Shown here: positions 12,720 through 33,811 of the stretch, in pieces | How the letters are laid out: each line of letters opens with the position of its first letter | Position numbering within the stretch: position 1 is the stretch's first letter | Origin: a virus | Strand: one strand, 5' to 3' | IMG/VR virus record: IMGVR_UViG_3300042567_002954 | Span: 1 to 37,474 of that record | Length of the DNA stretch: 37,474 nucleotides | Notes under the pieces: generated by a model | What the model saw: the letters and a program-made list of their open reading frames with translations, nothing else | The model's database searches: none | Told to the model about the DNA's origin: nothing | Made by a program: the position numbers and the translations under genes

Positions 12720-12790
12720 CTGTTCAATCCGCATGCCAACGGTGCTTTTCCGCGCCTAACGGCAGACTAACAAACGCGGATGGTGGATGA
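12720..12790 (+). repeat. Leader repeat copy C (partial)
   Basis: The first 23 bases (12720-12742) are identical to bases 13945-13967 of copy B. After that, only short blocks match: CGCCTAACGGCA near 12752 and CGCGGATGGTG near 12775. The ATCCGC/GCGGAT pair could still form a 6-bp stem. The shared 25-base 3' block with AAGGAGG is absent. It lies just after the 92-residue gene. Confidence 0.55.
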
Positions 12791-12905
12791 GAGGGCCGAC
12801 CATATTGCCATCCCTTGTGCGGGGGTCGTGAGCCTCTACGGCTGATTACGCGGCATTCCAGAGGTTGCCGGATTCACGGTCATTTCATGGCTGAATTGTG
12901 GTCTA

Positions 12906-13029
12906 TTCAATTCGTATGCCAACGGCACCAACCGATGTGAAATGGTTGCAAATTATGGTGCGAACCGGTGTGCGGATGGCACGCGACAAACGACGAAATT
13001 GACTGGCAGGAAGGAGGATGTCGGAACGC
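12906..13029 (+). repeat. Leader repeat copy A, upstream of the DNA ligase
   Basis: These 124 bases align without gaps to copy B (13948-14071); I count 99 identical positions. The last 24 bases are identical and include AAGGAGG directly followed by ATGTCGGAACGC. An 11-bp stem can form between bases 5-15 and 62-72 of the element. The changes relative to copy B inside the stem (positions 7, 10 and 64) are all C-to-T and keep pairing as G-U in RNA. This suggests a structured RNA leader rather than only a DNA site. Confidence 0.7.
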
Positions 13030-13053
13030 TCAACCCTCCGACCCACAGATACC

Positions 13054-13935: not shown

Positions 13936-13947
13936 TTTGCGGCCCTG

Positions 13948-14071
13948 TTCAATCCGCATGCCAACGGCACCTAACGGCAATAAATGGCCGATAAAAATGG
14001 TGCGAATTGGCGTGCGGATGGTGCGCGACAAACGACGCGGGTGGCTGGCAGGAAGGAGGATGTCGGAACGC
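13948..14071 (+). repeat. Leader repeat copy B, upstream of the amidoligase
   Basis: This is the best structured copy. Bases 5-17 and 60-72 of the element can form an uninterrupted 13-bp stem (13952-13964 with 14007-14019) around a loop of about 42 bases. The 3' end carries GGCAGGAAGGAGGATGTCGGAACGC, identical to copy A. The AAGGAGG directly abuts an ATG that is in frame with the downstream gene, as it does in copy A. Spacing zero is poor for initiation, so the purpose of this block is unclear. Confidence 0.7.
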
Positions 14072-14116
14072 GCCACTCATTGGCTCACCGGCCTCAGATT
14101 CCAACCAGATCCACAA

Positions 14117-16924: not shown

Positions 16925-17091
16925 TCGAGGTCAAACCCTACCTCAAGTCGGACGGCTACCGCACCCGCCATTGGGCCGTGTATGTTGATGGCGAGTTGCT
17001 GGCTGTGGTGCTCTACCGCAAGGGTGCTCAGGCCATCGCCGATCTGATCCTCAACACCCGTGCTGGAAAGGCGGCGAGTGATGCCGCGTAA
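16921..17091 (+). CDS. Small hypothetical protein
   Basis: This 56-residue gene fills the space between two coupled genes. Its ATG overlaps the upstream stop as ATGA, and its TAA lies 11 bases inside the AAA+ gene. The protein (MIEVKPYLKSDGYRTRHWAVYVDGELLAVVLYRKGAQAIADLI...) has a short beta-hairpin-like part, HWAVYVDGELLAVVLYRKGA, and a helix. It resembles the small phage proteins of unknown function that carry a W-x-V-Y-x-x-G-x-L-x-x-V-x-Y-x-K-G-A pattern. No function can be given. Confidence 0.72.
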   Translation: MIEVKPYLKSDGYRTRHWAVYVDGELLAVVLYRKGAQAIADLILNTRAGKAASDAA

Positions 17092-17704
17092 GTCACCAGT
17101 TGCGCCGACCTGCTTCGTCCCGTCCTGTCCTGCGGATTTCGTGGGGCAGGCGGGCAAGGTGGCGGACGTGTTGATGCGAAAGGCCGATCGCCTGCGGACG
17201 AACCCCAACCAACCAATCAAGCTGTTAGTGTCCGGTGCTCCCGGCATCGGCAAGACAAGTTTGGTGAACATGATCGCCCGCACGCTCGCCAGCCACCCCG
17301 TCGCCATCGATGATGTGAACGGCAAGGAAGTTGGACTTGAACTCGCCCGTGACTGGACACGCTCACTCGCCTACGGATCGCTCTTTGGATCGTGGTCGGT
17401 CAAAGTCGTGAATGAGTTGGACCGATGCTCCAAGGATGCGCAGGACATGCTGCTCACCTATCTCGACCGGATGAAGCCAGGCCATGCGTTCCTCGGCACC
17501 ACGAACCTCGATCTTGGAAGTCTGACCGAACGGTTCCAAACCCGGTTTCAATCGGTCCGCCTCCAGCCACCGGAAAACGAGGTTCTCGCGGCATTCCTCG
17601 CGAGGCGGTGGTCCGTCCCTATTGCCACCACCCGCATGATCGCGGCAGGAGCAGCAGGGAACGTCAGGGCGGCGATGGCGGATTTGGAGATGTGGTTGGG
17701 GTAA
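17081..17704 (+). CDS. AAA+ ATPase, clamp-loader/RarA-like
   Basis: This 207-residue protein is a single AAA+ module: FVGQAGKVADVL at the N-terminus, Walker A GAPGIGKT at 52-59, and a Walker-B-like VKVVNELDRCSKDAQDMLLTYLD. There Asn replaces the usual first acidic residue, although the ELDR that follows keeps acids nearby. Sensor 1 is AFLGTTN and an arginine-finger-like region is ERFQTRFQSVRL. It lacks the C-terminal oligomerisation domain found in RarA, and an orphan domain of that kind sits at 11851 in the same transcription direction. A replication or repair role is inferred. It is the last gene of the plus-strand block. Confidence 0.82.
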   Translation: MPRKSPVAPTCFVPSCPADFVGQAGKVADVLMRKADRLRTNPNQPIKLLVSGAPGIGKTSLVNMIARTLASHPVAIDDVNGKEVGLELARDWTRSLAYGSLFGSWSVKVVNELDRCSKDAQDMLLTYLDRMKPGHAFLGTTNLDLGSLTERFQTRFQSVRLQPPENEVLAAFLARRWSVPIATTRMIAAGAAGNVRAAMADLEMWLG

Positions 17705-17773: not shown

Positions 17774-20700
17774 TCATTTCGCTTCCACCCGGAAGAAGGC
17801 CGCGTTGTCAGGTGAACTGAATAGAAACTCCAGTTTGCCATCGCCGTTGATCGTGGTTTGCGGCGCGGTCATGGGAAATGGCGTGAAATGGCTTAAATCG
17901 GCGGCTTTTTGCAAACCGAGGGTCAGCTTGAATAAACCGGTCGCCGGGTCTTTGGAAAGCAATGGAGTCCCCACCTGCATAGCCTGAATCTGATCAGCTG
18001 TGTAAAGACCGCCGGTCCCGGCGTTCGCAAAGTAGGTGGCCACCATTTCCGGTTGGCTCGTCTGCCAGTTGAACCCCAGCACCTCCATTTGGAATTCCGC
18101 TGCGTCATTCAGGCCGTCGCCGTCAGTATCCTGGGTTGATGAAAGCCCCGTACCCGTAAGGGTGATGTTGAATGGGTTCTCGTCGTTGTCATTGTTGGCG
18201 ATGTGAAGTTCGGCGGTTTTGGGACCGCTGGTTGCGGGCGAAAACCTCACTGTCATGGTGGTGCTTCCCGTCGGGCCAGCTACCGGACTGGTTGGAGCGG
18301 ATGTTACGCTGAAAGATGCCGCATCCGTGCCATCGATGCTGGTCTGCAAGCCGGTCAAATCCGCATTGCCAGTGTTCTTGATGACAAATGTCAGACTTGT
18401 GCTCCGGCCGCCGCTGGCCACACCGAAACTCTTGGCTCCGCCAGCCGGGATGTTGATGCCGGCCTGAGTCACCTCGATTTCTGGCGCTGCGGAGAGACGG
18501 TTGACATTCACCGTATAGCTCTTGGTCGTCACGCCGTCCTGGGCTGTGACCAGCACGGTGATCGTATTGTTTCCAGGCATCAGGAAGACCGGCATGCTTG
18601 GGGCACCTGAAGTGACCGAGGCTACATTAACTTTCACCGTGGAAGTAGGCGTCGCCACGGTCGGCGTGACCGTGATGGTGCTGGTGTTGCTGGAAACCGT
18701 GGCTGTGTAGCCGGTGGTCGTAGATGAGAAAACCGGATCCAGAATCCCTGAGCTCAGGGCAAGGTTCGAGAGATTCGCGTTGTAGCCGGAAGTGGTGAAA
18801 ATCACATTGGCACTGCGGGTGACGCCACCATTGCTGGTGCCGACGATCCGGTAATGATAGGTGGTTCCGGGATTCAAACCGGTGAGCGTTGCGGAGACCG
18901 CCGTGGCACCGCTGCCGGTGATCGCGGCGGGAGTCCCTGCAATGCTGCTGCCGTAGGAACTGGTCAATCCGTAGTCAAACGAAGGAGTCGTGTTGCTGCC
19001 ATTTGCGTTCACGCTGCCGTTCAGCACCGCGCTGGTGGCGGTGATCGAAGTCGCTGCGAGCGTAGTCACCACCGGCGGTGGCGGCGAGGCTACCAGCGCC
19101 AAGCTGTGCAACGACGTGGAGCCACTTTTGACTCCGGCGAATCTTTCGTCCGGATTGAGCGCCGATGAGCTGACCGCTACCGGCACATTGCTGTTGGAAA
19201 GCGATCCATTGCCAAGTTCTCCATCACTATTGAACCCCCACGAGGCCAGCGTCCCATCGGCGCACAGCGCGAGATTGTACACCGCGCCGGATGACAGGCT
19301 GGAAACGGTCTTCCCCGCGATGACTCCACCCGTTTGTACGGCCACCGGCACCAGACTCGCCACATTGCCACCATTGCCACCATTGCCCAACTCGCCATTG
19401 CCGTTGTATCCCCATGTCGCCAGTGTCCCGTCACTGCATAGCGCGGCACCATGGTAATAGCCTGCTGCTGCGGTGAGGATTGTCTTGCCAGAAAGGATTC
19501 CCGAAGTGTCCACCAAGACCGGCACACTGCTGCCTTCCGTGCTGTTGTTTCCCAACTGCCCGTAGCCGTTGTAGCCCCAGCCCGCCAGTGTTCCATCCGA
19601 GCAAAGGGCGAAATTATGGAATGAACCCGCGAAGACCGCGTTGATCATCTTGTTTGCGAGCACGCCGGAGCTGTCCACAGTCACGGGAAGCACGCTGTAT
19701 CCCGTCCCACCATTGCCCAGCTCTCCATTACCGTTGTATCCCCACGCGGCAAGCGTGCCGTCCGAGCAAAGAGCAAAGCTGTGATAGGCTCCAGTCGCTA
19801 CCGCAGTCAGGTTTTTTCCAGAAAGAACGCCGGTCTTGCTCACCGCCACGGGTGTGAGGCTCTGGCTGGTAAGGCCGTTGCCGAGTTGGCCATAAAAATT
19901 GTATCCCCATGCGGCCAGCGTGCCGTCCGAACAGAGCGCGAGGCTGTGAAATTGCCCTGCTGCGATGGCGACGACGGTTTTACCCGAGAGCGTTCCTGCC
20001 GTGCTTACAGTCACCGGAATTAGGCTGTCGGTCGTGCTGCCGTTGCCGAGTTGCCCGTAGCCATTGTAACCCCATGCGGCCAGGGTGCCATCCGAGCAAA
20101 GTGCGAGGCTGTGATTCGCTCCGGTGGCAAGCGCGGTGACGACCTTTCCCGCAAGCACTCCGGTCCGATTGACCTGGGTGGGCAGGGAACTATCGACCAC
20201 CCCGTTGTTGCCCAGTTGACCATTGCTGTTTGAGCCCCAGCCAAGCAGCCGGGTGTTCGCCCATTGAAGAATCAGATCGTTGCCAGTGCCGCCGTAATAG
20301 TTGGCGACGAATTGATAGATCACGCCGCCGTAGGTCAAAGCAATCACTTGTCCCTGGGCCAGGTTCGAAAAAGTTCCAACAATCGGCCCTAGGCCGGTGT
20401 TGTTGACGACGGTGAGGCTGGTCCCTGACGCGGGCGCGAAGTTCAAGCCGAGGCTGGCCGAGTTGCCTGTTACAGTGAGCGCGCTCACTGTAACAGGCAC
20501 ATCTGCGGCCGAATTGTAGGTCGTGACTAGAGGCTGGCGGGTTACTGTCAGCGTGTAGGTTTTCGTGGTGGCGTTCTGTGCCGTGACCACGGTGGTGATG
20601 GTGTTGCTGCCCAAGTTCAGGGCAATCGTTGCACTCTGGCTGCCGGAAATGACGCTCACGGTGTTGACTTTCACAGTAGCCGTCGCATCCGCCACCGTGG

Positions 20701-22915
20701 GTGTGATCCTCAGGCCGGTCACCTCGTAGGGCACCGTCATGGTGTAGCTGATCGTGGCGCTTTCAAACGCCGGAGAAAGCGTGCCCGTAATCGGAACCAG
20801 CGATGCGAGATCCGCGTTAGCGCTCAAGCGCGTGACGGTAACGTTGTAGGTTTTGATCGTAACTCCATCCTGCGCGGTAACTTCCACGCTGATGACATTC
20901 GGACCGACCGCGAGATTGATCGCGCCGCTGTAGGTGCCGGAGTTGACGACGATTCCATTCACCCGCGCCGTGGCTGTGGTATCCGCCAAGGTCGGGCGGA
21001 TGGTCATCGAAGTGGTCGTGTTGGAAACGTTGAAAGCGTATTCGGTAGTGTTCGCATTGAACGATGGTGCAAGCGTCCCGGTCCCAGGCGTAAGCCCGGA
21101 GAGGTTGGCGTTATTGCTGGCGGCGATAAACGTCATGTTCGAGCCATAGGTTATGCCGAGCGCGTTTACCGCCTTCACGCGGTAATTGTAGGTTGTGCCC
21201 GCTACCAAGCCGGTGATGTTGGCGCTCACGGCGGTGTCCGAATTTCCAACCACAGGTGATTGAGTGGCCGACACTGTGCTGCCATAGGAAGTGGTGAGAC
21301 CGTATTCGAAAGAAACCGTAGTGCTGTTGGAGTTGGCATTCACCGTGCCGTTGAGAGCGGCGCTGCTGCTGGTGAGCGAGGTGGCCGTTGCTGTATCAGC
21401 TTTCGGCCAAGGAGGGGACACAACTAGTGCCAGACTGTGCTGGTATGAAATTCCTAATAGAGGAACCGAGAATTGTTCTCCTGCAATTAAAGACGTGGCA
21501 TTCACGGCAACTGGCACCAGACTGCTTGTGATCGCGGTGCCAACGCCAAGCATTCCGTAGTCATTAGATCCCCATGCGGCGAGAGACCCGTCAGAACACA
21601 GTGCCATGCTGTGCCTTGCGCTCGCGGCGATGGCAACCACAGCTTTTCCGGACAAAACCCCCGAGGAACTGACTAGCACTGGAACACTACTATTGCTGAC
21701 TGAACTATCTCCAAGTTGCCCATAATCGTTTCTGCCCCAGGCCGCTAAGGTTCCATCGGAGCAAAGTGCGCTGCTGTGGTAACCTCCTGTTGCAATCGAT
21801 TTGACGTATTTTCCATTGAGGATGCCGCTTGTGAATACAGCAACCGGGGTTGTTGTTCCAGTTGCATTAGCGGTCGAATTGTTACCCAATTGACCGAAGG
21901 AGTTGTAGCCCCATGAAGCGACTGTTCCATCTGAGAATAAGATGTGGCTATGATCTCCACCAGTAGAAATCGACTTTATTAGTTTTCCGGCAAACGAACC
22001 CGAGTAGCTTATCGCAACAGGAATGAGCGTATTTGTGCCGCCGATCGATCCCCAGGCGGCTAGTGTTCCGTCTGAACACAGGGCGAGACTTCGTTCTTCA
22101 CCTGCGGCAATAGCTACCACTGTCTTTCCTAAGAGAACTCCGAACGAATTGATTCCGATTGGAACTCCGCTACTATTTTTAGTATTGTTGCCTAGTGCGA
22201 AGCTGCCATTGTATCCCCATGCGGCGAGTGTTCCATCAGAACAGAGCGCAAGGTTGTGACTTCTTCCAACTGCAATGGCGACGACAGTTTTTCCTGAGAG
22301 GACTCCGAAAGAATTGATGTTAATCGGAATTTTGCTAGCGACGGTGCTGTTGTTTCCAAGCTGGCCATCCGAGTTGGCACCCCAGGCAAAGACCGTGCCG
22401 TCAGAACAAAGAATCATACTGTGGACATCCCCTGTTGCGCCAGAGATTACCGTCTTTCCAGTAAGTGAGTTGATCGAAAATACTGGTGTAGGAATTGTCC
22501 GATTGGTGTTGGTATTGTCGCCAAGTTGTCCTGAATAGTTGCGACCCCATGCAAAAACCCGATTATTCGCCCAGTGCAGCACCAGATCGTTGCCGTCTCC
22601 GCCATAGTAATTCGCCACGAAATCGTAGCCGATTCCGCCATAGGTTATGGTGACTTTCTGTCCCTGAGCGAGGTTGCTGAAGCTCCCTTGGATAAACGGT
22701 AGTCCGGTGTTGTCCACGATCTTCAAGTTCGTGCCGACTCCCGGCGCGAAGTTGAGCGTCAGGTTCACCGTATTGCCGGTGGCCGTGTAGCTTGCGGCGG
22801 TGACGGGAATATCGGCGGCCGAATTGAAAGTCGCGTTCACCACCGCCGCGTGGACGGAAGAGACCAGCAAGGGCAGCGCGAAAGCCAGATAGCAGAGGGA
22901 CTTCAGGAGATTCAT
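17774..22915 (-). CDS. Giant secreted RCC1-repeat/cadherin-like protein
   Basis: This 1713-residue protein begins with a clear signal peptide (MNLLKSLCYLAFALPLLVSSVHAA), so I start at 22915. A beta module ending VANYYGGDGNDLVLHWAN is followed by seven RCC1 repeats (AAWGYNxxGQLGN type, about 118-490), a fibronectin-like domain and two cadherin-like beta-sandwich domains. A second copy of the same beta module (about 790-885), seven more RCC1 repeats, another fibronectin-like and a cadherin-like domain come next. An ASH/choice-of-anchor-D domain (EIEVTQAGINIPAGG..., about 1433-1540) and a DTDGDGLND repeat precede the C-terminal region. It is probably a surface or exported adhesion-type protein of the host. 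It converges on the phage AAA+ gene, with 69 bases between the stops and no obvious terminator. Confidence 0.93.
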   Translation of the reverse strand: MNLLKSLCYLAFALPLLVSSVHAAVVNATFNSAADIPVTAASYTATGNTVNLTLNFAPGVGTNLKIVDNTGLPFIQGSFSNLAQGQKVTITYGGIGYDFVANYYGGDGNDLVLHWANNRVFAWGRNYSGQLGDNTNTNRTIPTPVFSINSLTGKTVISGATGDVHSMILCSDGTVFAWGANSDGQLGNNSTVASKIPININSFGVLSGKTVVAIAVGRSHNLALCSDGTLAAWGYNGSFALGNNTKNSSGVPIGINSFGVLLGKTVVAIAAGEERSLALCSDGTLAAWGSIGGTNTLIPVAISYSGSFAGKLIKSISTGGDHSHILFSDGTVASWGYNSFGQLGNNSTANATGTTTPVAVFTSGILNGKYVKSIATGGYHSSALCSDGTLAAWGRNDYGQLGDSSVSNSSVPVLVSSSGVLSGKAVVAIAASARHSMALCSDGSLAAWGSNDYGMLGVGTAITSSLVPVAVNATSLIAGEQFSVPLLGISYQHSLALVVSPPWPKADTATATSLTSSSAALNGTVNANSNSTTVSFEYGLTTSYGSTVSATQSPVVGNSDTAVSANITGLVAGTTYNYRVKAVNALGITYGSNMTFIAASNNANLSGLTPGTGTLAPSFNANTTEYAFNVSNTTTSMTIRPTLADTTATARVNGIVVNSGTYSGAINLAVGPNVISVEVTAQDGVTIKTYNVTVTRLSANADLASLVPITGTLSPAFESATISYTMTVPYEVTGLRITPTVADATATVKVNTVSVISGSQSATIALNLGSNTITTVVTAQNATTKTYTLTVTRQPLVTTYNSAADVPVTVSALTVTGNSASLGLNFAPASGTSLTVVNNTGLGPIVGTFSNLAQGQVIALTYGGVIYQFVANYYGGTGNDLILQWANTRLLGWGSNSNGQLGNNGVVDSSLPTQVNRTGVLAGKVVTALATGANHSLALCSDGTLAAWGYNGYGQLGNGSTTDSLIPVTVSTAGTLSGKTVVAIAAGQFHSLALCSDGTLAAWGYNFYGQLGNGLTSQSLTPVAVSKTGVLSGKNLTAVATGAYHSFALCSDGTLAAWGYNGNGELGNGGTGYSVLPVTVDSSGVLANKMINAVFAGSFHNFALCSDGTLAGWGYNGYGQLGNNSTEGSSVPVLVDTSGILSGKTILTAAAGYYHGAALCSDGTLATWGYNGNGELGNGGNGGNVASLVPVAVQTGGVIAGKTVSSLSSGAVYNLALCADGTLASWGFNSDGELGNGSLSNSNVPVAVSSSALNPDERFAGVKSGSTSLHSLALVASPPPPVVTTLAATSITATSAVLNGSVNANGSNTTPSFDYGLTSSYGSSIAGTPAAITGSGATAVSATLTGLNPGTTYHYRIVGTSNGGVTRSANVIFTTSGYNANLSNLALSSGILDPVFSSTTTGYTATVSSNTSTITVTPTVATPTSTVKVNVASVTSGAPSMPVFLMPGNNTITVLVTAQDGVTTKSYTVNVNRLSAAPEIEVTQAGINIPAGGAKSFGVASGGRSTSLTFVIKNTGNADLTGLQTSIDGTDAASFSVTSAPTSPVAGPTGSTTMTVRFSPATSGPKTAELHIANNDNDENPFNITLTGTGLSSTQDTDGDGLNDAAEFQMEVLGFNWQTSQPEMVATYFANAGTGGLYTADQIQAMQVGTPLLSKDPATGLFKLTLGLQKAADLSHFTPFPMTAPQTTINGDGKLEFLFSSPDNAAFFRVEAK

Positions 22916-23189
22916 GGTTGGAGCTCGCAGTGGAACGATCAGAGTTGGCAAGGGAGATAGCAGTTGAGGTGATTGACGCCATTGCAAAAATTGTGGAACG
23001 TCGGATTTCCAGTCGCTTGCTTTTATGCTGTTCTTGTGCCACTAGATTTCTATCAGAAATTACGACAAGCAAACGCTTGAGTCAGTCGTAACCCATTGAC
23101 TGTGAGGAGGAAATCTATTTACGAGAGCGTCCCAGTCCTCGGGTCTCCCCACCCCCATCCAAATCCTATGAAAGGTGCCATTTTCAGCT
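22916..23189. other. Gap between epimerase and RCC1 gene
   Basis: This 274-base stretch lies downstream of the epimerase gene and upstream of the RCC1 gene. It should hold the promoter of the latter, but I could not identify convincing -35/-10 boxes, a terminator hairpin or an RNA gene. It is slightly richer in A and T than its surroundings. Confidence 0.4.
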
Positions 23190-25748: not shown

Positions 25749-26286
25749 GGGATTGAGTGGATCGGATGCGGGCGGCGCGATACCGCTTGCGGGCTGTCAA
25801 CGAGCGCATGGCGCGGGAGGGTTTGAGGTCGAGAAGTTCGGTTAGTTCGACACAGCGTTTGCTGACCGCCGCTCGGGTGATGCCGTGGCGTTCGGCGATT
25901 TCAGTCATCGAGGAGCCGGTGTAAGAGAGTCCGCTGACCAGGGCGATGCACTCGGCGGTGAGGCGGGCGTTGTCGTGGCAGAGGATTTCACCCAGCACTC
26001 GCCGCAGGGACGCCCACACGGATTCGGTGTCGCATGTCTCGTCATCGGATTCCGGCTCAGGCTCGGGTAACACGGCGGGATCATCCCCTTCGCGCATGAG
26101 CGGACTGTCGGCGGCATCTCCCATGGCGGAGCCGTTGCCGTGGTGGGCGAGGCATGGCGCGGCAAGACCTTGGGCTTCAAGTTTGCGGCGTTCGTCCGCA
26201 GGCAGCGACTCAATCCACGCCCGGTATTCGCGCTGATACTCAGCATCGCGGGCTGACTGTTTTTTCGAGTAATCGTCGGAGTTCAT
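25735..26286 (-). CDS. HTH-containing phage regulator-like protein
   Basis: This 183-residue protein has an acidic middle (EPEPESDDETCDTES) and a C-terminal helix-turn-helix of sigma-region-4 type, MTEIAERHGITRAAVSKRCVELTELL, followed by basic residues. The ATG at 26286 overlaps the polymerase gene stop as ATGA; upstream in-frame codons are Arg/His-rich and probably not translated. It may regulate phage transcription or act at the origin. It lies directly downstream of the replication fusion gene. Confidence 0.78.
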   Translation of the reverse strand: MNSDDYSKKQSARDAEYQREYRAWIESLPADERRKLEAQGLAAPCLAHHGNGSAMGDAADSPLMREGDDPAVLPEPEPESDDETCDTESVWASLRRVLGEILCHDNARLTAECIALVSGLSYTGSSMTEIAERHGITRAAVSKRCVELTELLDLKPSRAMRSLTARKRYRAARIRSTQSHEHP

Positions 26287-29200
26287 TTCTCGGCCCAGGT
26301 GGTGCAGATGTTGGCTTCGACTTCGACCGGCACCTCGGGGAAGAGGGCGGACATGGCTTCGACCATCGCGGTCGTAATGATTTCCCGGCACTCGTCGGCG
26401 GATTCCTCGCGGCACTCGACGACGACTTCATCGTGGACCGTGGAAACGATGCGGGCAGTTTTCGGAAGGCGTTCGTGGATCAGGATGAGGGCGTGTTTCA
26501 TGCCGTCGGCGGTGCCGCCCTGGACTGGAGTGTTCACGAGCGCGGTGAAGCGTTCCCACTCGCTGGCTTTTTCAGGGACGAGTCGGCGACGGCCGGTGCG
26601 GGTGCGAACTTCGGTGACGCCCGACTCTGCCTGGTTGTGGCTGGTGCCGTGCCATTGGCGGAGCCGTGAGTAGGTGCGGAAGAATGCCTGGCGGATGTCG
26701 GTTGCCTGATCTTCGTCGAGGGTGACGCCATAGGAACTGGCGGCGTATTTCACCAGACCAGGGGCGGACTGGCCGTAGAGCAGGCCGAAGTTCACCGCCT
26801 TCGCCAACTGCCGGTCGGACTTCGTCACCTGATCCTCGGATTTGCCGAGCACGGTGGCGGCGGTGAGTTTGTGGAGGTCCGCGCCCGACTTGTAGGCGTC
26901 GATCATCTTGGTTTCGCCCGCGATGGCTGCCGCCGCACGCAATTCGATCTGCGAGTAGTCGGCGACGATGAGGCGTTTGCCATTCGGCGCGGTGAAGGCT
27001 TCCCGCATCTCACCCCGCCCGATGTTCTGGAGATTCGGTTCCTTGGATGAGAAGCGACCGGTGGCGGTGCCGAGTGGTTCGAAGCGCCCGTGGATCCGTC
27101 CGTCCTTCTGGATGTGTCCGACCAATGATTCGGCCTGTTGGGCGCGTTTGCTCGCTTCGCGATGGGCCAGCACCAGGGGAACCAGGTGGCCGTCGTCAGC
27201 CGCTTTGAGGACTTCTTCGGCGGTGGATTCCAGTTTGAGACCCTTGGCGCGGAGGGCCGCGAGAATTTGGCTCGGGCTGGCCGGGTTGAGCGATGGGTTG
27301 CCGAGTGCCGTGCGGAGATCATCCGCCGCTTTCTGGGCGAGTCGGTCAGCTTCGGCCGCGATGGATTCGAGTTTGGATTTGTCGGTGTGAATCCCGGTGG
27401 CTTCCATCCCCACCACGCACGGCAGCAGGTTACTTTCGAGCGACCACACCAGATCCAGACCGGATACCTCCAACTCGCTTTCCATGGTGCCGAGCAGGTC
27501 GTGGAGGTGGGCCACGTCGCGGGCGGCGTAGGCGAGCTGGTCATCAGTGAGCAGCATCGACGCCCAATCGGAACGGCTGTGGTCGGCGGCAGGAGCAATG
27601 CCGAGGTATCGTTCCAGGCATTTATCGAGGTCGTTGCCGGGTTTGGTGCCGGCCACAAGCAGACGGGCGGCGGTGAGCGTGCAGTGGACGCGTTTGGCGA
27701 ACAGTCCGCACTTCACCCGCAGCCAGAGCAGATCGAACTTGGCGTTGTGGGCGATGATGCCGGTTTCCTCCAAGATCGGCTTGAGCGGTCCGAGATCGTA
27801 TCCAACGGCGCGGAGGTCGATGGTCCAGATTGGGCCACCGTGGCGGCAGACGGTGAGCAGGCGGATGTCACCCTTCCACGGGTCGAGGCCATCGCCTTTG
27901 CGCTCACCGTAGGTTTCGATGTCCAGAGCGATGCGGGATGCTCCGGTCAGGTCGAGGGCAACGCGGTCGAGGTCGGCGCGGAGGGAGCAGAAAACCTGTT
28001 TGTGGGACGTGGGGACATTGAGGGAGTTTTCCCTATCTCCCGTATAGAGACCTTTTAATTCATCATGATTTTTATTTTTCTCATCGTCATTTTTTTCTCC
28101 CATATAAGGCGTATGAGAATGTCCCACAATGTCCCCACGTCCCACAGGTTTGGTGGCAGGTTGGGGCGTTGAGAGGCAAATTGGCAGATCTCCCTCGCCA
28201 TCACGGAAAAACCGATAGGTGGCATAGTTCTTCGATGTCTGCTTGAGACGGAAGGTGATGCCCCCGAGTTCACGCTTGTCGAACTTCGCGACGATCTTGC
28301 CGAAGCTGGTCAATCCTCGCCGCGCAGCGAAGTCGAGCCAGTCAAACAGCTCGTGAACACCTTCGTCCTGCTGCACGAATGCCTGGAATTCTTTCTTGAG
28401 AACCTCCCGGTCGCCGAAGTGATCGAAGGCCAGAATGAAGAAATCCCGCATCGCCTTGGTCGCTTGGTCGCCGGACGATTGGCTGTCTTCATGCGGGCGG
28501 CACGGGTCCGGCAAACCGGCACAGTGGAGGATGCCACCGACTGTCTGCCCCCATTCCGGGAATGAAGTGAATGGCGATGGACCGGGCGGGCATCCTTGGC
28601 GCACCCACTCGGAAACCAGTGCTGAGACCGCCGAGAGCAATTCCGACCGGTGGCGGCGAACCCAACCTTTGATGTCGATGTGACGGTAGCGGTGGCCGTT
28701 GATGTCGTCGGGTGAGAAGCGCAGGCGGATGCGGCGGCAGCGGCGTTCGATGTCGGGTTCCCAGGTCGCGTTGTTGGCGGAGAATGAAAACTCGGTTTCG
28801 TTGGGGAGCGTCATGGTTTCACTCACACCAAGGCGGCGGTCCTCCCACACACCCGAGTTGTCGGTGGCGGCTTCGAGCGAGGCATAGCGGACGTGCCCCT
28901 TCATATTCGCCAAGTGGAAGAAGCGGCTGCCGGCCATGAGCGCTGAGGTGATGCGTTTGCGCATCTCGTCGTCGCATTCCTTGGAGAGTGGGGCGCAGAT
29001 GATCGAACGGCCGGTGTAGGCAATATGCGTGAGGTCGGCGCAGGTGTCCTTGCCGCAGCCCTCGCGATTGCCGTCGAAAATCCAGAGCGGGGTGCGCATC
29101 CATCCCATCAGGCCCCGACAGAACGGGGTGATGAAACGTGCCAGCGCGTGGATGCGGGATTGTTCGTCGTGCCACCAGAAACCGCCGTGCTCGGGTAGGC

Positions 29201-30692
29201 CGAAGAGATCCTGGAGTAGCCAGCGCAACGCCTCGCTGTGGCCCATCGTCTTGAGCTGCGGAGCGTGCGGATTGAGCCAGGTGCCGAAGCGTTCGTCGTA
29301 TCCTGGTTTCGGATAGACCAGCTTGCCATCGTCGGACAAGTGCGGCACCGGCACGTCGAGGACGCGGTGGATGCGCGGCAGGCATGAGCTGAAAAATCCG
29401 CTGACCAGCGTGATGCGGGCGTCCTGCTCGCTCATGCTCTTAGGGATAAAAACCTCGTCGCCAGCATCGTCTTCCCTGGTGACGCCGGTTTCGACGGTGC
29501 GCTCGATGGCGGTGACCAGTTCCGCGGCCTTGATGGTCGAGAGCATGTGGCCGGGAATCGACCCCGCCTTGTCGGCGGCTGGAACGGTGGTGATTTCCAC
29601 CACGTTGTTTGAGAAGCGGAAGAGATCGAGAGCCGGGGCGAGGTATTGGCCTAGTTCCTTGCCGAACTCACCTTGGGCGCGACCCAGCGCTGGGAGAATG
29701 ATGCGCGGCCTGCCCGAGGCGTTGGTGTTGCCCGGAGCCCAGACCCGGAGATTCGAGCAACGGGCGGCGATGATTCCTGGTTTCTGCGCCTCCGCCCATT
29801 CGACCAGATCCCGGATGCCGCGTGATTCGCAATGCGAGTGCAGGCACTTGAATCCCGGCATGGTTTCCGGCTGGTTGAAAATGATCGTGTCCGATCCTGG
29901 AGCGTCTGCCACGCCTCCGGTGTGATCCGCTTCCCACGGGCAACGCACCGACCACTTGTTGTGATCAGGGTCGAGGCAGGCACCCAAACGGCCAAGGTCT
30001 TCCATCACCCCGGCGAGATCGAGCGTGCGGAGGTCTTCGTTCCACCGCGCCCACCATGGTTTTTCCTTCGACGGACGACCGCGCTTCTTGGCTTCCGGTG
30101 CCGAGAATCCAAACCAGTGACAGAGGTTGGTCCAACTCACTTCCGGGATGTCGCCGGTCACTTCCCAGGAATACGTGTGGCCGCTTTTGTGGACCGATGG
30201 AGAGAGAACGAGATTGAGGCCATCCAGATAGAGTTCGGCGGTGACAGCATCATTGATCTGGCAGGTTGGTGCCTTCTTCGCCTTCATCACCTCCTCGGGG
30301 ATGTCGCGGCAGATGAATGCCAAGTGTGCCCCGCCGCCGGTGCGTTCACGGGGAACGGCTGATAGATCCGGTTGAGTGGCGAGCCATGCCATCACCGAGG
30401 CACCGGCATCCGGCTTGCTGTCGAGATCGACATGGACGAACGGCGCACGCACGACGCAGCCGATGTTGTGGGTGGATCCGTTGGCGAAATACTTGGTCAG
30501 GAAATCAGGACTGATCTCCGAGGCCGTGTGGTTGCGCCAGCCTTTGAGAATCGGTTTCTTGCCGCGCTCATGGTGGTCGCCACGGTCGGGCGGCAGCAGG
30601 GGATGGATCGCCCAGCCAAGAGTGCCGGCATAGAATTGCGCGGCGGCGAGTCGGTCGAGGGAGTTGATGTCGGGTGAAATTGAGGGCTTCAT
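26283..30692 (-). CDS. Primase-helicase-exonuclease-family A DNA polymerase fusion
   Basis: One frame of 1469 codons joins several replication functions. Residues 20-200 are an archaeo-eukaryotic-type primase-polymerase: metal residues VHVDLD at 87-92, GGGAHLAF at 119-126, and YLDGLN near 155. A zinc-binding region follows (C251...H257, then C283-x-x-H-x-H-x-x-E). Residues about 480-660 form a helicase-like ATPase with GNREGCGKDT at 541-550 and FSFSANNATWEPDIERRCRRIRL. An Asn/Lys/Asp-rich linker (860-895) leads to a 3'-5' exonuclease (DIE at 924-926, HNAKFDLL with D987, YAARDVAHLHD with D1059) and a family A polymerase: motif A DYSQIELR (D1245), motif B around RQLAKAVNFGLLYG (1294-1307), motif C VHDEV (1420-1423). 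It overlaps both neighbours by ATGA. Confidence 0.93.
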   Translation of the reverse strand: MKPSISPDINSLDRLAAAQFYAGTLGWAIHPLLPPDRGDHHERGKKPILKGWRNHTASEISPDFLTKYFANGSTHNIGCVVRAPFVHVDLDSKPDAGASVMAWLATQPDLSAVPRERTGGGAHLAFICRDIPEEVMKAKKAPTCQINDAVTAELYLDGLNLVLSPSVHKSGHTYSWEVTGDIPEVSWTNLCHWFGFSAPEAKKRGRPSKEKPWWARWNEDLRTLDLAGVMEDLGRLGACLDPDHNKWSVRCPWEADHTGGVADAPGSDTIIFNQPETMPGFKCLHSHCESRGIRDLVEWAEAQKPGIIAARCSNLRVWAPGNTNASGRPRIILPALGRAQGEFGKELGQYLAPALDLFRFSNNVVEITTVPAADKAGSIPGHMLSTIKAAELVTAIERTVETGVTREDDAGDEVFIPKSMSEQDARITLVSGFFSSCLPRIHRVLDVPVPHLSDDGKLVYPKPGYDERFGTWLNPHAPQLKTMGHSEALRWLLQDLFGLPEHGGFWWHDEQSRIHALARFITPFCRGLMGWMRTPLWIFDGNREGCGKDTCADLTHIAYTGRSIICAPLSKECDDEMRKRITSALMAGSRFFHLANMKGHVRYASLEAATDNSGVWEDRRLGVSETMTLPNETEFSFSANNATWEPDIERRCRRIRLRFSPDDINGHRYRHIDIKGWVRRHRSELLSAVSALVSEWVRQGCPPGPSPFTSFPEWGQTVGGILHCAGLPDPCRPHEDSQSSGDQATKAMRDFFILAFDHFGDREVLKKEFQAFVQQDEGVHELFDWLDFAARRGLTSFGKIVAKFDKRELGGITFRLKQTSKNYATYRFFRDGEGDLPICLSTPQPATKPVGRGDIVGHSHTPYMGEKNDDEKNKNHDELKGLYTGDRENSLNVPTSHKQVFCSLRADLDRVALDLTGASRIALDIETYGERKGDGLDPWKGDIRLLTVCRHGGPIWTIDLRAVGYDLGPLKPILEETGIIAHNAKFDLLWLRVKCGLFAKRVHCTLTAARLLVAGTKPGNDLDKCLERYLGIAPAADHSRSDWASMLLTDDQLAYAARDVAHLHDLLGTMESELEVSGLDLVWSLESNLLPCVVGMEATGIHTDKSKLESIAAEADRLAQKAADDLRTALGNPSLNPASPSQILAALRAKGLKLESTAEEVLKAADDGHLVPLVLAHREASKRAQQAESLVGHIQKDGRIHGRFEPLGTATGRFSSKEPNLQNIGRGEMREAFTAPNGKRLIVADYSQIELRAAAAIAGETKMIDAYKSGADLHKLTAATVLGKSEDQVTKSDRQLAKAVNFGLLYGQSAPGLVKYAASSYGVTLDEDQATDIRQAFFRTYSRLRQWHGTSHNQAESGVTEVRTRTGRRRLVPEKASEWERFTALVNTPVQGGTADGMKHALILIHERLPKTARIVSTVHDEVVVECREESADECREIITTAMVEAMSALFPEVPVEVEANICTTWAEK
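28089..28095 (-). promoter_or_regulatory. Possible dnaX-like -1 frameshift site at the primase-helicase/polymerase junction
   Basis: On the coding strand the frame reads GAA AAA AAT GAC, so A-AAA-AAT is a canonical X-XXY-YYZ slippery heptamer within an A7 run. After a -1 slip the next codon is TGA at once, giving a product of 868 residues that holds the primase and helicase parts but no polymerase. This parallels E. coli dnaX. A +1 shift would stop at 28055. Whether slippage happens is untested, and no downstream hairpin was confirmed. Confidence 0.4.
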
Positions 30693-31942
30693 CGGTGTGA
30701 GTGGGGAAAGTGGAAATCGAGTGCTCGCTGGGAGACAAAGACACCACGCGGCCAGTCTTTGAGGTGGAGTCCGGCGAGTGTGCGGACACGGGAGAGGGCG
30801 ACGTATGCCTGGCCGGGTTCTCTGGCGGCACGGATGTCAATGAAGGCTGAATCGAGCGTGAGACCTTGGGCTTTGTGGATGGTCAGGGCGTTTGCCAACC
30901 GCAGCGGTAGTTGCTCGAACCAGGCGGTGCCCGGGTCGTTGGAGTCGTAGCGCCAGCGGTAAGGGGACACCTCAAGTTCGCGGCCTTCGGTGCAGACGAC
31001 GACGGAGGTGATACCGATGGAAACCACCTCGCCGGTCTGGCCGTTGACGAAACCGTCGTCGGGGCGATTGACGGTGAACATCACCTTGGCACCCGGCTTG
31101 AGCCGCAGGACTTTGGGTGTGAGCAGGTTCTTTTCGAGGAAGTCGATCTGGTGCTGTGGCCCCCAGGTTTCCGCCTCGCGGACGGATTCAGGGCCGGGGA
31201 GTTCGCCGAGGCAGAAGTCGTTCCAGCGATCCACCATCAAGTTGTGTGTGAAGAGCCGCGTGATGTCCCTCGCGGGGAAGGTGGTGATGCGCGGACGCAG
31301 CAGCCGTTCGGTTTCGCCGTCGATTTCACCGCGACGGAATTTTGCCAACGCTGCCACGAAATCCGGTTCGTCCTGCCGCATGATTCGCCGCAATTCGACG
31401 GTCTGGAATTTCGCCGCCGACCACGCCGCTGAATCGAAGGCCCAGTCATAGGAATGCGTCGGGTTGATTCTAACGGGCGGCAGTTGCAGGAAGTCGCCGG
31501 TGCCAATCACCTGGATGCCGCCAAAGGGTCGTTTGTCCTCCCGGATTTTTTGGCAGTGGAAATTGAGGTAGTCGAACGCGCTGCCTGAGAGCATCGAGAT
31601 TTCATCAATCACGAGCCGCTTGCAGCGACGCACCCGGTTGAAGGCCGCCCGAACACTCGGTTTCTGATCGCAGGCCAGTTGAGCAAAGAACCGCTCGAAT
31701 TCCTGCCCCTTGACCGGTCCGAGCAACATTCCGCTCCATCGGTGGACGGTCATGCCGCCGACGTTGAGGGCCGCCACTCCGGTCGATGCCACGACCTGCG
31801 TGTCCGGCTGACGCTTCAAGTAGTCCCGGACGTTGTGACTTTTCCCGGACCCTGCCGGGCCAGTGAGAAACGTGTTCTCACCAGCCGTGGCAAGGTCGAG
31901 GAACCGGTCGGCTGGACTCCGTGCAACCAGACTTCCGCTCAT
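30689..31942 (-). CDS. Pif1-family (SF1B) DNA helicase
   Basis: This 417-residue helicase shows the full set of Pif1/RecD-like motifs. They are Walker A GPAGSGKS (28-35), STGVAALNVGG (motif Ia), VIDEISML (motif II), GTGDFLQLPPV (motif III), LTIHKAQGLTLDSAFIDI (motif V) and QAYVALSRVRTLAGL (motif VI). It should unwind DNA 5'-3' with ATP during phage replication or recombination. I start at 31942, since its ATG overlaps the stop of the upstream small gene; a further extension to 32173 is Arg/Pro-rich and lacks similarity. Its stop overlaps the polymerase fusion start. Confidence 0.93.
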   Translation of the reverse strand: MSGSLVARSPADRFLDLATAGENTFLTGPAGSGKSHNVRDYLKRQPDTQVVASTGVAALNVGGMTVHRWSGMLLGPVKGQEFERFFAQLACDQKPSVRAAFNRVRRCKRLVIDEISMLSGSAFDYLNFHCQKIREDKRPFGGIQVIGTGDFLQLPPVRINPTHSYDWAFDSAAWSAAKFQTVELRRIMRQDEPDFVAALAKFRRGEIDGETERLLRPRITTFPARDITRLFTHNLMVDRWNDFCLGELPGPESVREAETWGPQHQIDFLEKNLLTPKVLRLKPGAKVMFTVNRPDDGFVNGQTGEVVSIGITSVVVCTEGRELEVSPYRWRYDSNDPGTAWFEQLPLRLANALTIHKAQGLTLDSAFIDIRAAREPGQAYVALSRVRTLAGLHLKDWPRGVFVSQRALDFHFPHSHR

Positions 31943-32103
31943 GGCAGCCACGCGCCTCCGCCGCGAAGGACCCAACCCGCAAGCAGGCCGAGTAGGAATG
32001 ACAAGACGATCATCGGCCAGCGACGACGGCGGTTTTGACGCACGACAAATCCCTGGATGGGGAAGCGACGATACGCAGACTGCGGATAGATGGGAGTGGT
32101 CAT
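31939..32103 (-). CDS. Small one-TM protein between nuclease and Pif1 genes
   Basis: This 54-residue protein (MTTPIYPQSAYRRFPIQGFVVRQNRRRRWPMIVLSFLLGLLAGWVLRGGGAWLP) has a basic patch followed by one membrane segment, so the N-terminus is probably cytoplasmic. Its TGA overlaps the ATG of the helicase gene, and it starts 26 bases after the nuclease stop, so it fits the coupled operon. Its early codons contain an operator-like palindrome (32072-32086). Function unknown. Confidence 0.68.
   Translation of the reverse strand: MTTPIYPQSAYRRFPIQGFVVRQNRRRRWPMIVLSFLLGLLAGWVLRGGGAWLP
32072..32086. promoter_or_regulatory. Palindromic operator-like site 4
   Basis: TACGCAGACTGCGGA shares a CGCAG-A-CTGCG core with the other three sites. 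Together with the following bases (ATAGATGG) it matches the XRE upstream site and its flank (ATAAATGG) closely. It falls in the first codons of the small one-TM gene, between the nuclease and helicase genes, where a bound repressor could stop transcription. Confidence 0.4.
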
Positions 32104-32129
32104 GGTTGTGGATCGGAGTTTTGATTTTG

Positions 32130-32996
32130 TTAGGCCGGGACCAACGCGGTCGGCGGTGTTTCATCGCCTGCATCCGGCGAGTCCTTCACCGGGCAGTAGT
32201 TTTTCTGCCAGACCCACAAGTCGCGGGCGGCGAGGAAGGCTCGGAAGAAGCCGGGTTTGTCGGCATCGTCCCAAACCTGTGTCACGACCGGCACCGGTTC
32301 GGTGGAACCGATGACAACCGAGGCGATGGCGGCGTCCTGCAATCCCTTGTCGCGGGAGGCCAGCGCCATCCGGTAGGCTTCGAGTTGCAGCGGCCAAGTG
32401 TCGTGGAGGATCGGCTTGAACGATCCATTCTTGTCGCGCCGGGTTTTCTGCGTCTTGAAGTCGATGACGGTCGGACGCCCGGTGGATTTGAGTGTCGCCA
32501 CCAGGTCCACTCGTCCGGCGTATCCCCATTCGAGGTGCGCTGTGGCGATTTCAACCGAGTGGACCTGCGTGACCTCTGCATCGAACCACTGGCGAGCCGG
32601 TTCAAAGAGGCGGGCAACCTCCTTGTCCTCGGGCAACCAGCGACCTTGTGCGTAGCCTTCGATGGCGGCGTGAACCGCACTGCCGGTGTCGGCGGCTTTG
32701 CCAACTTCACTGTGCATGTCGGTGATGACACGTTTAGCGAAGTCGTCGAGGGATTCGCCTTCGGTGCGCGGCAGGGTGAGTGCCGCAAGGATGGCCTGTT
32801 CCTGTTTCCATGCGTCCAACCCCGGCTTGGCGAGGATGGACAACACGTTGGTCACGGATGGGAACAGACCGAGTTTTCGGGCATCGCGCAGGCTGGTAGG
32901 GCGGCTGCCCTTCCCGTCGGCACGCGGCACCTCGTGAAGGGGCGTGCCGTCCGGGAAATACCAGTGTGACGCTGACTCTCGTGGAACGATAAGCAT
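32130..32996 (-). CDS. RecB/Cas4-like PD-(D/E)XK nuclease
   Basis: This 288-residue protein carries the RecB-type nuclease pattern: TGSAVHAAIEGY with H109, E149 in SVEIATAHLEWGYAGRVDLVA with D164, then TVIDFKTQK (D179-x-K181) and LQLEAYRMAL (Q/Y motif). Phage proteins of this kind act as exonucleases in replication or homologous recombination. It follows the SSB-like gene by 14 bases and leads into the helicase genes. It lacks the four-cysteine cluster of true Cas4, so a Cas4 label would be too specific. Confidence 0.88.
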   Translation of the reverse strand: MLIVPRESASHWYFPDGTPLHEVPRADGKGSRPTSLRDARKLGLFPSVTNVLSILAKPGLDAWKQEQAILAALTLPRTEGESLDDFAKRVITDMHSEVGKAADTGSAVHAAIEGYAQGRWLPEDKEVARLFEPARQWFDAEVTQVHSVEIATAHLEWGYAGRVDLVATLKSTGRPTVIDFKTQKTRRDKNGSFKPILHDTWPLQLEAYRMALASRDKGLQDAAIASVVIGSTEPVPVVTQVWDDADKPGFFRAFLAARDLWVWQKNYCPVKDSPDAGDETPPTALVPA

Positions 32997-33010: not shown

Positions 33011-33724
33011 TTAGAACGGGATGTTGTCCTCTTCATCGTCCTGAGACGAGAGAGCCTGTTTCGCCTGCTGGAGAGCGGCGATGAGTTCGCGGTCGGCCTT
33101 GAGCGGCTTCTCCATTTCGAGTGCCGTGGGCAGCCACTTGGTTGCCAGCGCCTCCACCGACTCGCGGTCGAGTTCGCCGAGATCGATGCCGCTGTGCTTG
33201 CCGACGTGAACCTTGACCCGCCGCCAGTCGGACGAAGCCTCGCCGCTGTTGGATGCCGGCCGGAACTTCTCGTCGTTGTTCTGGCGATCCTTCTGGCGGA
33301 CATACTTGCCGGACGGCTTCAACGGGTCGCCGGACTTGTCCGGACGGATGAGGCCGATGTTGGCGTAGGTCTGACCGTTGTAATCGTTGTGGACCACGGA
33401 GACGCGGGCCGGCCGGCCAATCAGGGCTTCGGTGTCGAACTCGTTCTGCTCGGCCGTGGTCAGGTCGCGGCCGAACCACTGTTTCAGGAACGCGCGGAGG
33501 GCGGCCTTCTCGTGGAGCGACGGCGTGAAGCTGCGGCTGAAGAGCAGGTAGGGGCTGCCGTTCTGGCGGAGTTCGCGGGTTTCGAAGACGATGCGGAAGG
33601 TCTCGCGCTCGCCATAGGTCGACTGGGTCTTCTTGAGCGGCGTGACGTCCACGCAGACGGCCTGGCCGTCATACTCAGGGTGGGCTTCAAACGGGGTGGT
33701 GGATCCGGTTGCGGACAGTTTCAT
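33011..33724 (-). CDS. Phage SSB-like single-stranded-DNA-binding protein with acidic tail
   Basis: This 237-residue protein ends DDEEDNIPF, the acidic tail plus Ile-Pro-Phe with which bacterial SSBs recruit partners. The body (VCVDVTPLKKTQSTYGERETFRIVFETREL..., ARVSVVHNDYNGQTYANIGLI) is beta-rich and OB-compatible, of the phage family that replaces classical SSB. It lies immediately upstream of the nuclease and helicase genes. I start at ATG 33724 (MKLSATGS). An upstream in-frame start at 33787 would add a short non-conserved segment. Confidence 0.8.
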   Translation of the reverse strand: MKLSATGSTTPFEAHPEYDGQAVCVDVTPLKKTQSTYGERETFRIVFETRELRQNGSPYLLFSRSFTPSLHEKAALRAFLKQWFGRDLTTAEQNEFDTEALIGRPARVSVVHNDYNGQTYANIGLIRPDKSGDPLKPSGKYVRQKDRQNNDEKFRPASNSGEASSDWRRVKVHVGKHSGIDLGELDRESVEALATKWLPTALEMEKPLKADRELIAALQQAKQALSSQDDEEDNIPF

Positions 33725-33811
33725 AGCAATGATGTGGTTTGGTTCTGGTTCTCGAATGGGCCGCTTCGAGTGCTCCACCGCCGGCACGGCCCGACCGACG
33801 GCGGAAGTCGG

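Follow-up and report, generated by a model that had tools for sequence, protein, structure and literature searches.

We analysed the IMG/VR virus contig IMGVR_UViG_3300042567_002954, of 37,474 bases (hereafter the window), which encodes a portal, a terminase, a head protease and major head proteins, and we describe here one gene of its minus strand in which a primase, a helicase, an exonuclease and a DNA polymerase are joined. The gene probably serves replication in a tailed Verrucomicrobiota phage (or prophage). It couples an initiator module to a synthesis module, and the replication origin is probably embedded in the coding DNA of the linker between the two. The frame starts with an ATG at 30692 and stops at 26283 on the minus strand, with no internal stops, and its linker carries an inverted pair of iteron sets. 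The original prediction for this gene overlooked both this junction element and the self-loading initiator nature of the helicase. The gene and the element are the following:

26283..30692, minus strand: fused replicase gene (open frame of 1469 amino acids, aa, a chain of ~160 kDa; intact in 18 other complete sequences)
28122..28146, minus strand: first iteron arm, TGTGGGACGTGGGGACATTGTGGGA on the coding strand (inverted-repeat scan)
28026..28121, no strand: AT-rich spacer, 96 nucleotides (nt), 67% AT (composition)
28001..28025, minus strand: second iteron arm, TCCCTCAATGTCCCCACGTCCCACA on the coding strand, an inverted copy of the first (inverted-repeat scan)

Regarding the element, its arms are 25 nt each and are complementary at 24 of the 25 positions. 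The inverted repeat scored 22.5, the next best in the window scored 12 and those of six shuffled windows reached at most 12.5; an inverted repeat of this kind is present in a single copy in the 37-kb record. We read the arms as sets of iterons because a repeat unit recurs within them approximately every 7-10 nt. The AT content of the window peaks here, in 90 nt that overlap the spacer (28043-28132, 69% against a mean of 40%), and therefore the element appears origin-like; it has the short repeats right behind the helicase sequence, together with AT-rich DNA, that mark this class of origins. Since the frame reads through the element into the exonuclease and the polymerase, the putative origin would also be the coding sequence of a flexible linker. 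The GC skew of the window gave no clear origin signal.

The same fusion was found in other phage and metagenome sequences, a search that the original prediction had proposed. IMG/VR contains five further complete fused frames (L002, L003, L004, L005 and L007). When the N-terminal half was compared with 84,980 species genomes, it yielded 21 loci, nearly all in Verrucomicrobiota (Akkermansiaceae, Prosthecobacter and others; one is labelled Planctomycetota). All 10 complete loci among them are fused, three are broken copies (L087, L097 and L101) and the remainder are truncated where their contigs end. The LW23 genome added one complete fusion (L142), and a scan of 388 genomes of the phylum added two (L140 and L141). 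Thus, there are 19 complete fused frames including that of the window, among which L090/L095, L100/L107 and L106/L142 are pairs from the same genome. The other 18, from independent assemblies, have a primase domain 46-99% identical to that of the window. Among cultured phages, only the polymerase half matched in a search with the whole protein, and the N-terminal half found phiAsp2, Caulobacter/Brevundimonas phages and Streptomyces plasmids, all at low identity.

In 16 of the 19 relatives the inverted repeat beats all 300 synonymous-codon shuffles, and therefore it is not forced by the protein. Furthermore, in seven close relatives 14 of the 31 pairs have changed on both sides, and the covariation score was 0.300, against 0.136 +/- 0.022 for shuffles and at most 0.127 for slid pairings. 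The arm units are unrelated between lineages (GGGACAT, TTTGCCYAC, GGAAAC and GAGGTG; among the distant relatives, TTTGCCTAC in L102, GGAAAC in L105 and GAGGTG in L100), and the plan is constant across them, with arms of 18-48 nt and a spacer of 52-103 nt. No other part of the protein is as poorly conserved as the linker (13-80% identity). A pattern search of IMG/VR DNA with the repeat gave one match, an already known relative, because the iterons diverge fast, and blastn of the linker region gave weak short matches to Arthrobacter phage polymerase genes, at the exonuclease start. Two candidate features of the linker were rejected, namely a spacer ATG as an internal start for a free polymerase and a slippery A7 site; neither the ATG nor the A-run is conserved in L003, L005 or L006. 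As a separate observation, TTGATTCCAA(A/T)TTGGAATCAA recurs in L100 and L107 (764-1246) as several inverted copies some 100-250 nt apart; they lie upstream of the replicase and are possible regulator sites.

The element is also found where this helicase is not joined to a polymerase. In three distant, unfused helicase relatives (L129, L130 and L131), with no polymerase, an element of this kind follows the stop codon of the helicase, and in the homologues of Streptomyces and Saccharopolyspora plasmids it starts 14-106 nt past the gene. The element is absent from two loci where a polymerase of the same kind is a separate gene (L008 and L009, see below), and there is no inverted repeat in the linker of Pas55, a 1415-aa protein of the Actinoplanes phage phiAsp2 (AY576796; L145 2924-7171). 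One relative, L102, is a natural swap of the helicase plus its iterons: compared with the window, the primase (78% identity), the zinc region (74%), the exonuclease (85%) and the polymerase (83%) are similar, whereas the helicase is 46% and its C-terminal domain 22% identical, and the iterons are different as well. Among 13 sequences, iteron similarity was best tracked by the identity of this C-terminal domain (Mantel r 0.713, 0 of 2000 permutations), also given polymerase identity (partial r 0.644, 0 of 2000); the primase gave 0.122, not significant, once the C-terminal domain was accounted for.

The domain order of the replicase is archaeo-eukaryotic primase (AEP), zinc region, AAA+ helicase, linker with the candidate origin, 3'-5' exonuclease and family A polymerase, located as follows:

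30147..30641, minus strand: AEP Prim-Pol primase/polymerase domain, aa 18-182 (PF09250 E 8.5e-14; Foldseek pRN1 ORF904 1rni E 1.5e-6)
29829..29978, minus strand: putative zinc region, aa 239-288 (alignment; metal binding predicted)
28473..29372, minus strand: predicted superfamily 3 (SF3)/D5-like AAA+ initiator helicase core, aa 441-740 (hhalign and Foldseek)
28215..28472, minus strand: helicase C-terminal domain, aa 741-826, candidate iteron-binding domain (AlphaFold2, AF2; mean predicted local distance difference test, pLDDT, 90)
27468..27974, minus strand: 3'-5' exonuclease domain, aa 907-1075 (PF01612, DNA_pol_A_exo1, E 1e-17)
26289..27374, minus strand: family A DNA polymerase domain, aa 1107-1468 (PF00476, DNA_pol_A, E 3.9e-79)

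Translation and Pfam confirmed the predicted single unbroken frame with primase, exonuclease and family A polymerase, and the alignment of relatives supports a putative zinc region. The Prim-Pol match (52.7 bits against a curated cut-off of 22.8), like the exonuclease and polymerase matches, exceeds its cut-off. The translation contains the AEP motifs DLD (89-91) and GGxH (120-123), the exonuclease motifs I-III (DIET, HNAKFD and YAARD) and the polymerase motifs A, B and C (DYSQIELR, RQLAKAVNFGLLYG and VHDE). In the alignment of relatives, D89, D91 and H123 are invariant in 17, as are E153, which may act as motif III, and C251, H257, C283, H285, H287 and C288 of the zinc region.

No Pfam model matches aa 350-830 and a PDB sequence search with the N-terminal half gave nothing meaningful. 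Nevertheless, aa 384-823 align with the RepA helicases of Streptomyces plasmids (hhalign probability 99.8%, E 8e-29). An AF2 model of aa 1-832 (mean pLDDT 76), a check that had been suggested for this protein, gave fold matches for both parts in Foldseek: the primase part matches the pRN1 prim-pol (1rni), and the helicase part matches the SaPI5 primase-helicase Rep (7ola), PriRep1 (7pds), NrS-1 (6k9e) and poxvirus D5/E5. On these alignments and this model, the helicase would belong to the self-loading D5/SF3-type initiator class, homologous to the SaPI Rep and pWTY27 RepA kind, and would work like it. The AF2 model of the C-terminal domain (aa 741-826) is confident and orders its helices and strands as H-E-H-H-H-E-E, much like a winged helix, but the domain has no significant fold match in the PDB.

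The original prediction had also seen a Walker-type ATPase here, and a Walker A-like GNREGCGKD (aa 541-549) in a homologous AAA+ core bears this out, but the usual Walker B acid is absent. In place of GK[S/T] and DN, the protein has GKD and (A/S)N: the acid D replaces S/T at aa 549 (window position ~29048), and the Walker B site at aa 595 (~28910) reads LAN. Helicase activity is therefore only a prediction, and we limit the claim to homology and an initiator-like way of working, not a standard ATPase site, because these residues are non-canonical. Actually, GKD with (A/S)N in the Verrucomicrobiota proteins and GK[S/T] with DN in the plasmid homologues and L132 are consistent in the aligned sequences, and a swap of the acid between Walker A and Walker B is possible.

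From the analogy with known initiators we infer origin activity and helicase binding of the element. With aa 741-826 the replicase would bind the inverted arms at 28122-28146 and 28001-28025; it would then open the AT-rich spacer of 96 nt and load there as a helicase. The AEP domain would prime, and the attached polymerase, if the chain stays uncut, would extend the primer. As had been proposed for this gene, joining helicase and polymerase could keep leading-strand synthesis tethered to unwinding at a fixed ratio of the two enzymes. A more ambitious version, which we put forward tentatively and consider doubtful, is that the whole replicon lies in one frame. Initiator, primase, helicase, proofreading polymerase and cis-acting origin would then be one inheritable unit, helicase and origin would be exchanged as a cassette within the gene (L102), the tethered polymerase would be delivered to the very origin that codes for its linker and, possibly, each protein would prefer the genome that made it.

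Several points weigh against an origin in the linker. The linkers of L106, L140 and L142 are weak, since 8-11 of the 300 shuffles reach their repeat. Positions between the iterons are mirrored too, which exceeds what simple iteron binding needs and may point to a hairpin form; a hairpin was proposed by the pWTY27 authors for their own repeat (PMC3583192). The RepA of pWTY27 is only distantly homologous (24% identity when the profiles are aligned), and a fold search of the PDB with the isolated C-terminal domain gave no significant match. Without the Walker B acid, judging from the sequence, ATPase activity is not assured. Finally, plain linkage could explain part of the Mantel correlation, because the C-terminal domain of the helicase and the linker adjoin in the gene.

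Among the other explanations of the repeat, we consider it unlikely that it acts as an mRNA structure (for pausing between domains, for cleavage by an RNase into two messages or for control of expression) and not as an origin. The repeat is indeed transcribed, its arms covary and, when the linker region is folded as RNA, the predicted stem is highly stable (-83 to -111 kcal/mol). However, an RNA helix should tolerate G-U pairs and there is no G-U excess, the mismatches in 21 arms being 11 G-T, 21 A-C and 28 others. Nor is there any match to an Rfam family. Furthermore, the element follows the helicase gene in the unfused relatives and in the plasmids, and that of pWTY27 is bound as DNA (PMC3583192).

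It is quite unlikely that the palindrome is a passive product in a functional fusion, either a selfish insert, like the Rickettsia palindromic elements (RPE), or the result of quasipalindrome correction. A linker so tolerant of change and arms mirrored even between the iterons would suit this explanation. Nevertheless, several copies would be expected of an RPE-like element and the window has one, and the repeat occupies the same position in nearly all lineages despite their unrelated sequences. It is also missing from Pas55 and from the split-polymerase loci, and in plasmids it follows the homologous helicases as a component of the replication locus (PMC3583192). Quasipalindrome correction might help to keep the arms alike.

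Initiators that bind iterons often also autoregulate. The element might thus be a helicase site for plasmid-style copy control, with the true origin elsewhere. We regard this as unlikely: the element is located downstream of or inside the gene, away from the promoter, it encloses the stretch where the AT content of the window is highest, and the corresponding plasmid element belongs to the minimal replication locus (PMC3583192).

Finally, the probability that an assembly chimera or a frameshift joined two adjacent genes is practically negligible: fused replisome chains this long are rare and broken copies exist, but the error that had been feared at the junction is excluded by the 18 intact relatives in independent contigs, where 27900-28200 is open, in frame and conserved.

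Regarding the history of the fusion, the possibility that relatives always have two separate genes had been raised. The complete loci of the species genomes are all fused, and the split form was found in L008 (4841-8856, with a 4-nt overlap between the genes) and L009 (5552-9644). In both, a polymerase of the same kind (64-65% identity) has its own gene, which follows that of a different primase-helicase, of the DnaB-like type. The two polymerases fall inside the fused clade in a maximum-likelihood tree of the exonuclease-polymerase part, L009 beside L104 (support 100/99) and L008 beside L100/L107 (100/100). Because of this nesting, the simplest reading of the tree is that the fusion is ancestral and was split twice, although replacement of a fused N-terminal half would give the same pattern.

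Directly upstream of the replicase and in the same direction there are three further genes, which the original prediction had named as SSB (single-stranded DNA-binding protein), nuclease and Pif1, and which Pfam, phrog and NF046043 matches confirm:

30689..32173, minus strand: Pif1/Dda-like helicase, overlapping the replicase gene by 4 nt (PF05970 E 8e-27; phrog_325)
32130..32996, minus strand: PD-(D/E)XK exonuclease (PF12705 E 1.7e-9; phrog_298 E 5e-32)
33011..33787, minus strand: SSB-like / NGO0469-family phage replication protein (NF046043, 92 bits against a cut-off of 75; phrog_378)

Elsewhere in the window, a small AAA+ protein (17060-17704, plus strand) matches phage clamp-loader families (phrog_5846), and no sliding clamp was noticed in the window. 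A 1737-aa repetitive protein (17774-22987, minus strand) contains many copies of a repeat of ~165 nt, and these repeats look RCC1-like by eye. The gene of an ATP-dependent DNA ligase is flanked by a 132-nt direct repeat (12903-13034 and 13945-14076, 79% identical), of which a related copy of 23 nt is found at 12720.

If true, it would be a novel arrangement for an origin to double as the flexible connection from helicase to polymerase. This would account for a linker that varies as protein but keeps its pairing as DNA, and it would make testable how initiation passes to synthesis on one chain. The polymerase tree, with its apparently ancestral fusion and two splits, and the natural helicase-plus-origin swap provide ready comparisons. 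The inverted iteron pattern could also help to locate the origins of other phages with this helicase class.

Fused replicases and origins within a gene each have precedents, and we found none for the combination. A literature search gave no paper on this fusion or on a linker-embedded origin, which is weak evidence because the coverage of subscription journals was poor. The statement of the original prediction that these activities are usually separate proteins is true, but fused relatives are known in PREX, the OS3173 polyprotein and Pas55.

PREX of Plasmodium has, like the window replicase, primase, helicase, exonuclease and family A polymerase in one chain; unlike it, PREX is a nuclear gene with no origin known in it, and its primase and helicase are of the TOPRIM and T7 gp4-like classes where the window has an AEP primase and a D5-like helicase. 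PREX, which proteolysis separates into three enzymes, is a primase-helicase-polymerase polyprotein that is cut after import (PMC9631997), and by analogy the replicase chain could be cleaved too. The OS3173/TOSV Aquificae virus has a 1606-aa protein in which an N-terminal primase/helicase region is joined to an exonuclease and a family A polymerase; some relatives have it fused and others split, and nuclease and helicase genes adjoin it (PMC7689252). However, its helicase is DUF927, which has no Pfam match in the window replicase, and neither an AEP domain nor an embedded origin is reported for it (PMC7689252). Pas55, from a cultured phage, likewise unites a homologous helicase core (33% identity over aa 450-727) with an apparent exonuclease and a family A polymerase; it differs in a DUF3854 region that replaces the AEP domain, as well as in its linker. 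It is annotated merely as a putative DNA polymerase, the fusion being unremarked. Fusions of D5-class helicases to a family A-related polymerase (TV-Pol) have also been described (PMC2579912).

Regarding the origin, experimental evidence exists for one homologue. The Streptomyces plasmid pWTY27 requires repAB plus the neighbouring iterons for its replication, which proceeds in both directions; RepA binds there specifically and its footprint covers an inverted repeat of ~105 bp, whose loop stays open (PMC3583192). As in the window, a long inverted repeat of short iterons comes immediately after a Prim-Pol primase and a homologous helicase (the hhalign match given above), but in pWTY27 primase, helicase and origin are separate, there is no polymerase and the origin is non-coding. 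SaPI Rep and SCCmec Cch2 are also D5-type AAA+ helicases with an iteron origin right after the helicase sequence, just downstream of the gene, where the iterons are recognised by the C-terminal domain (PMC7581432). In SaPI5 Rep a primase is attached to the helicase, and SCCmec pairs its helicase with an A-family polymerase (PMC7581432), although the polymerase is unfused and the origin intergenic. In lambda the origin does lie inside a gene, since iterons and an AT-rich, strand-asymmetric stretch are within the coding sequence of the initiator O (PMC4488673); nevertheless, O is neither a helicase nor a polymerase, and its iterons are direct repeats and not an inverted pair of sets as in the window.

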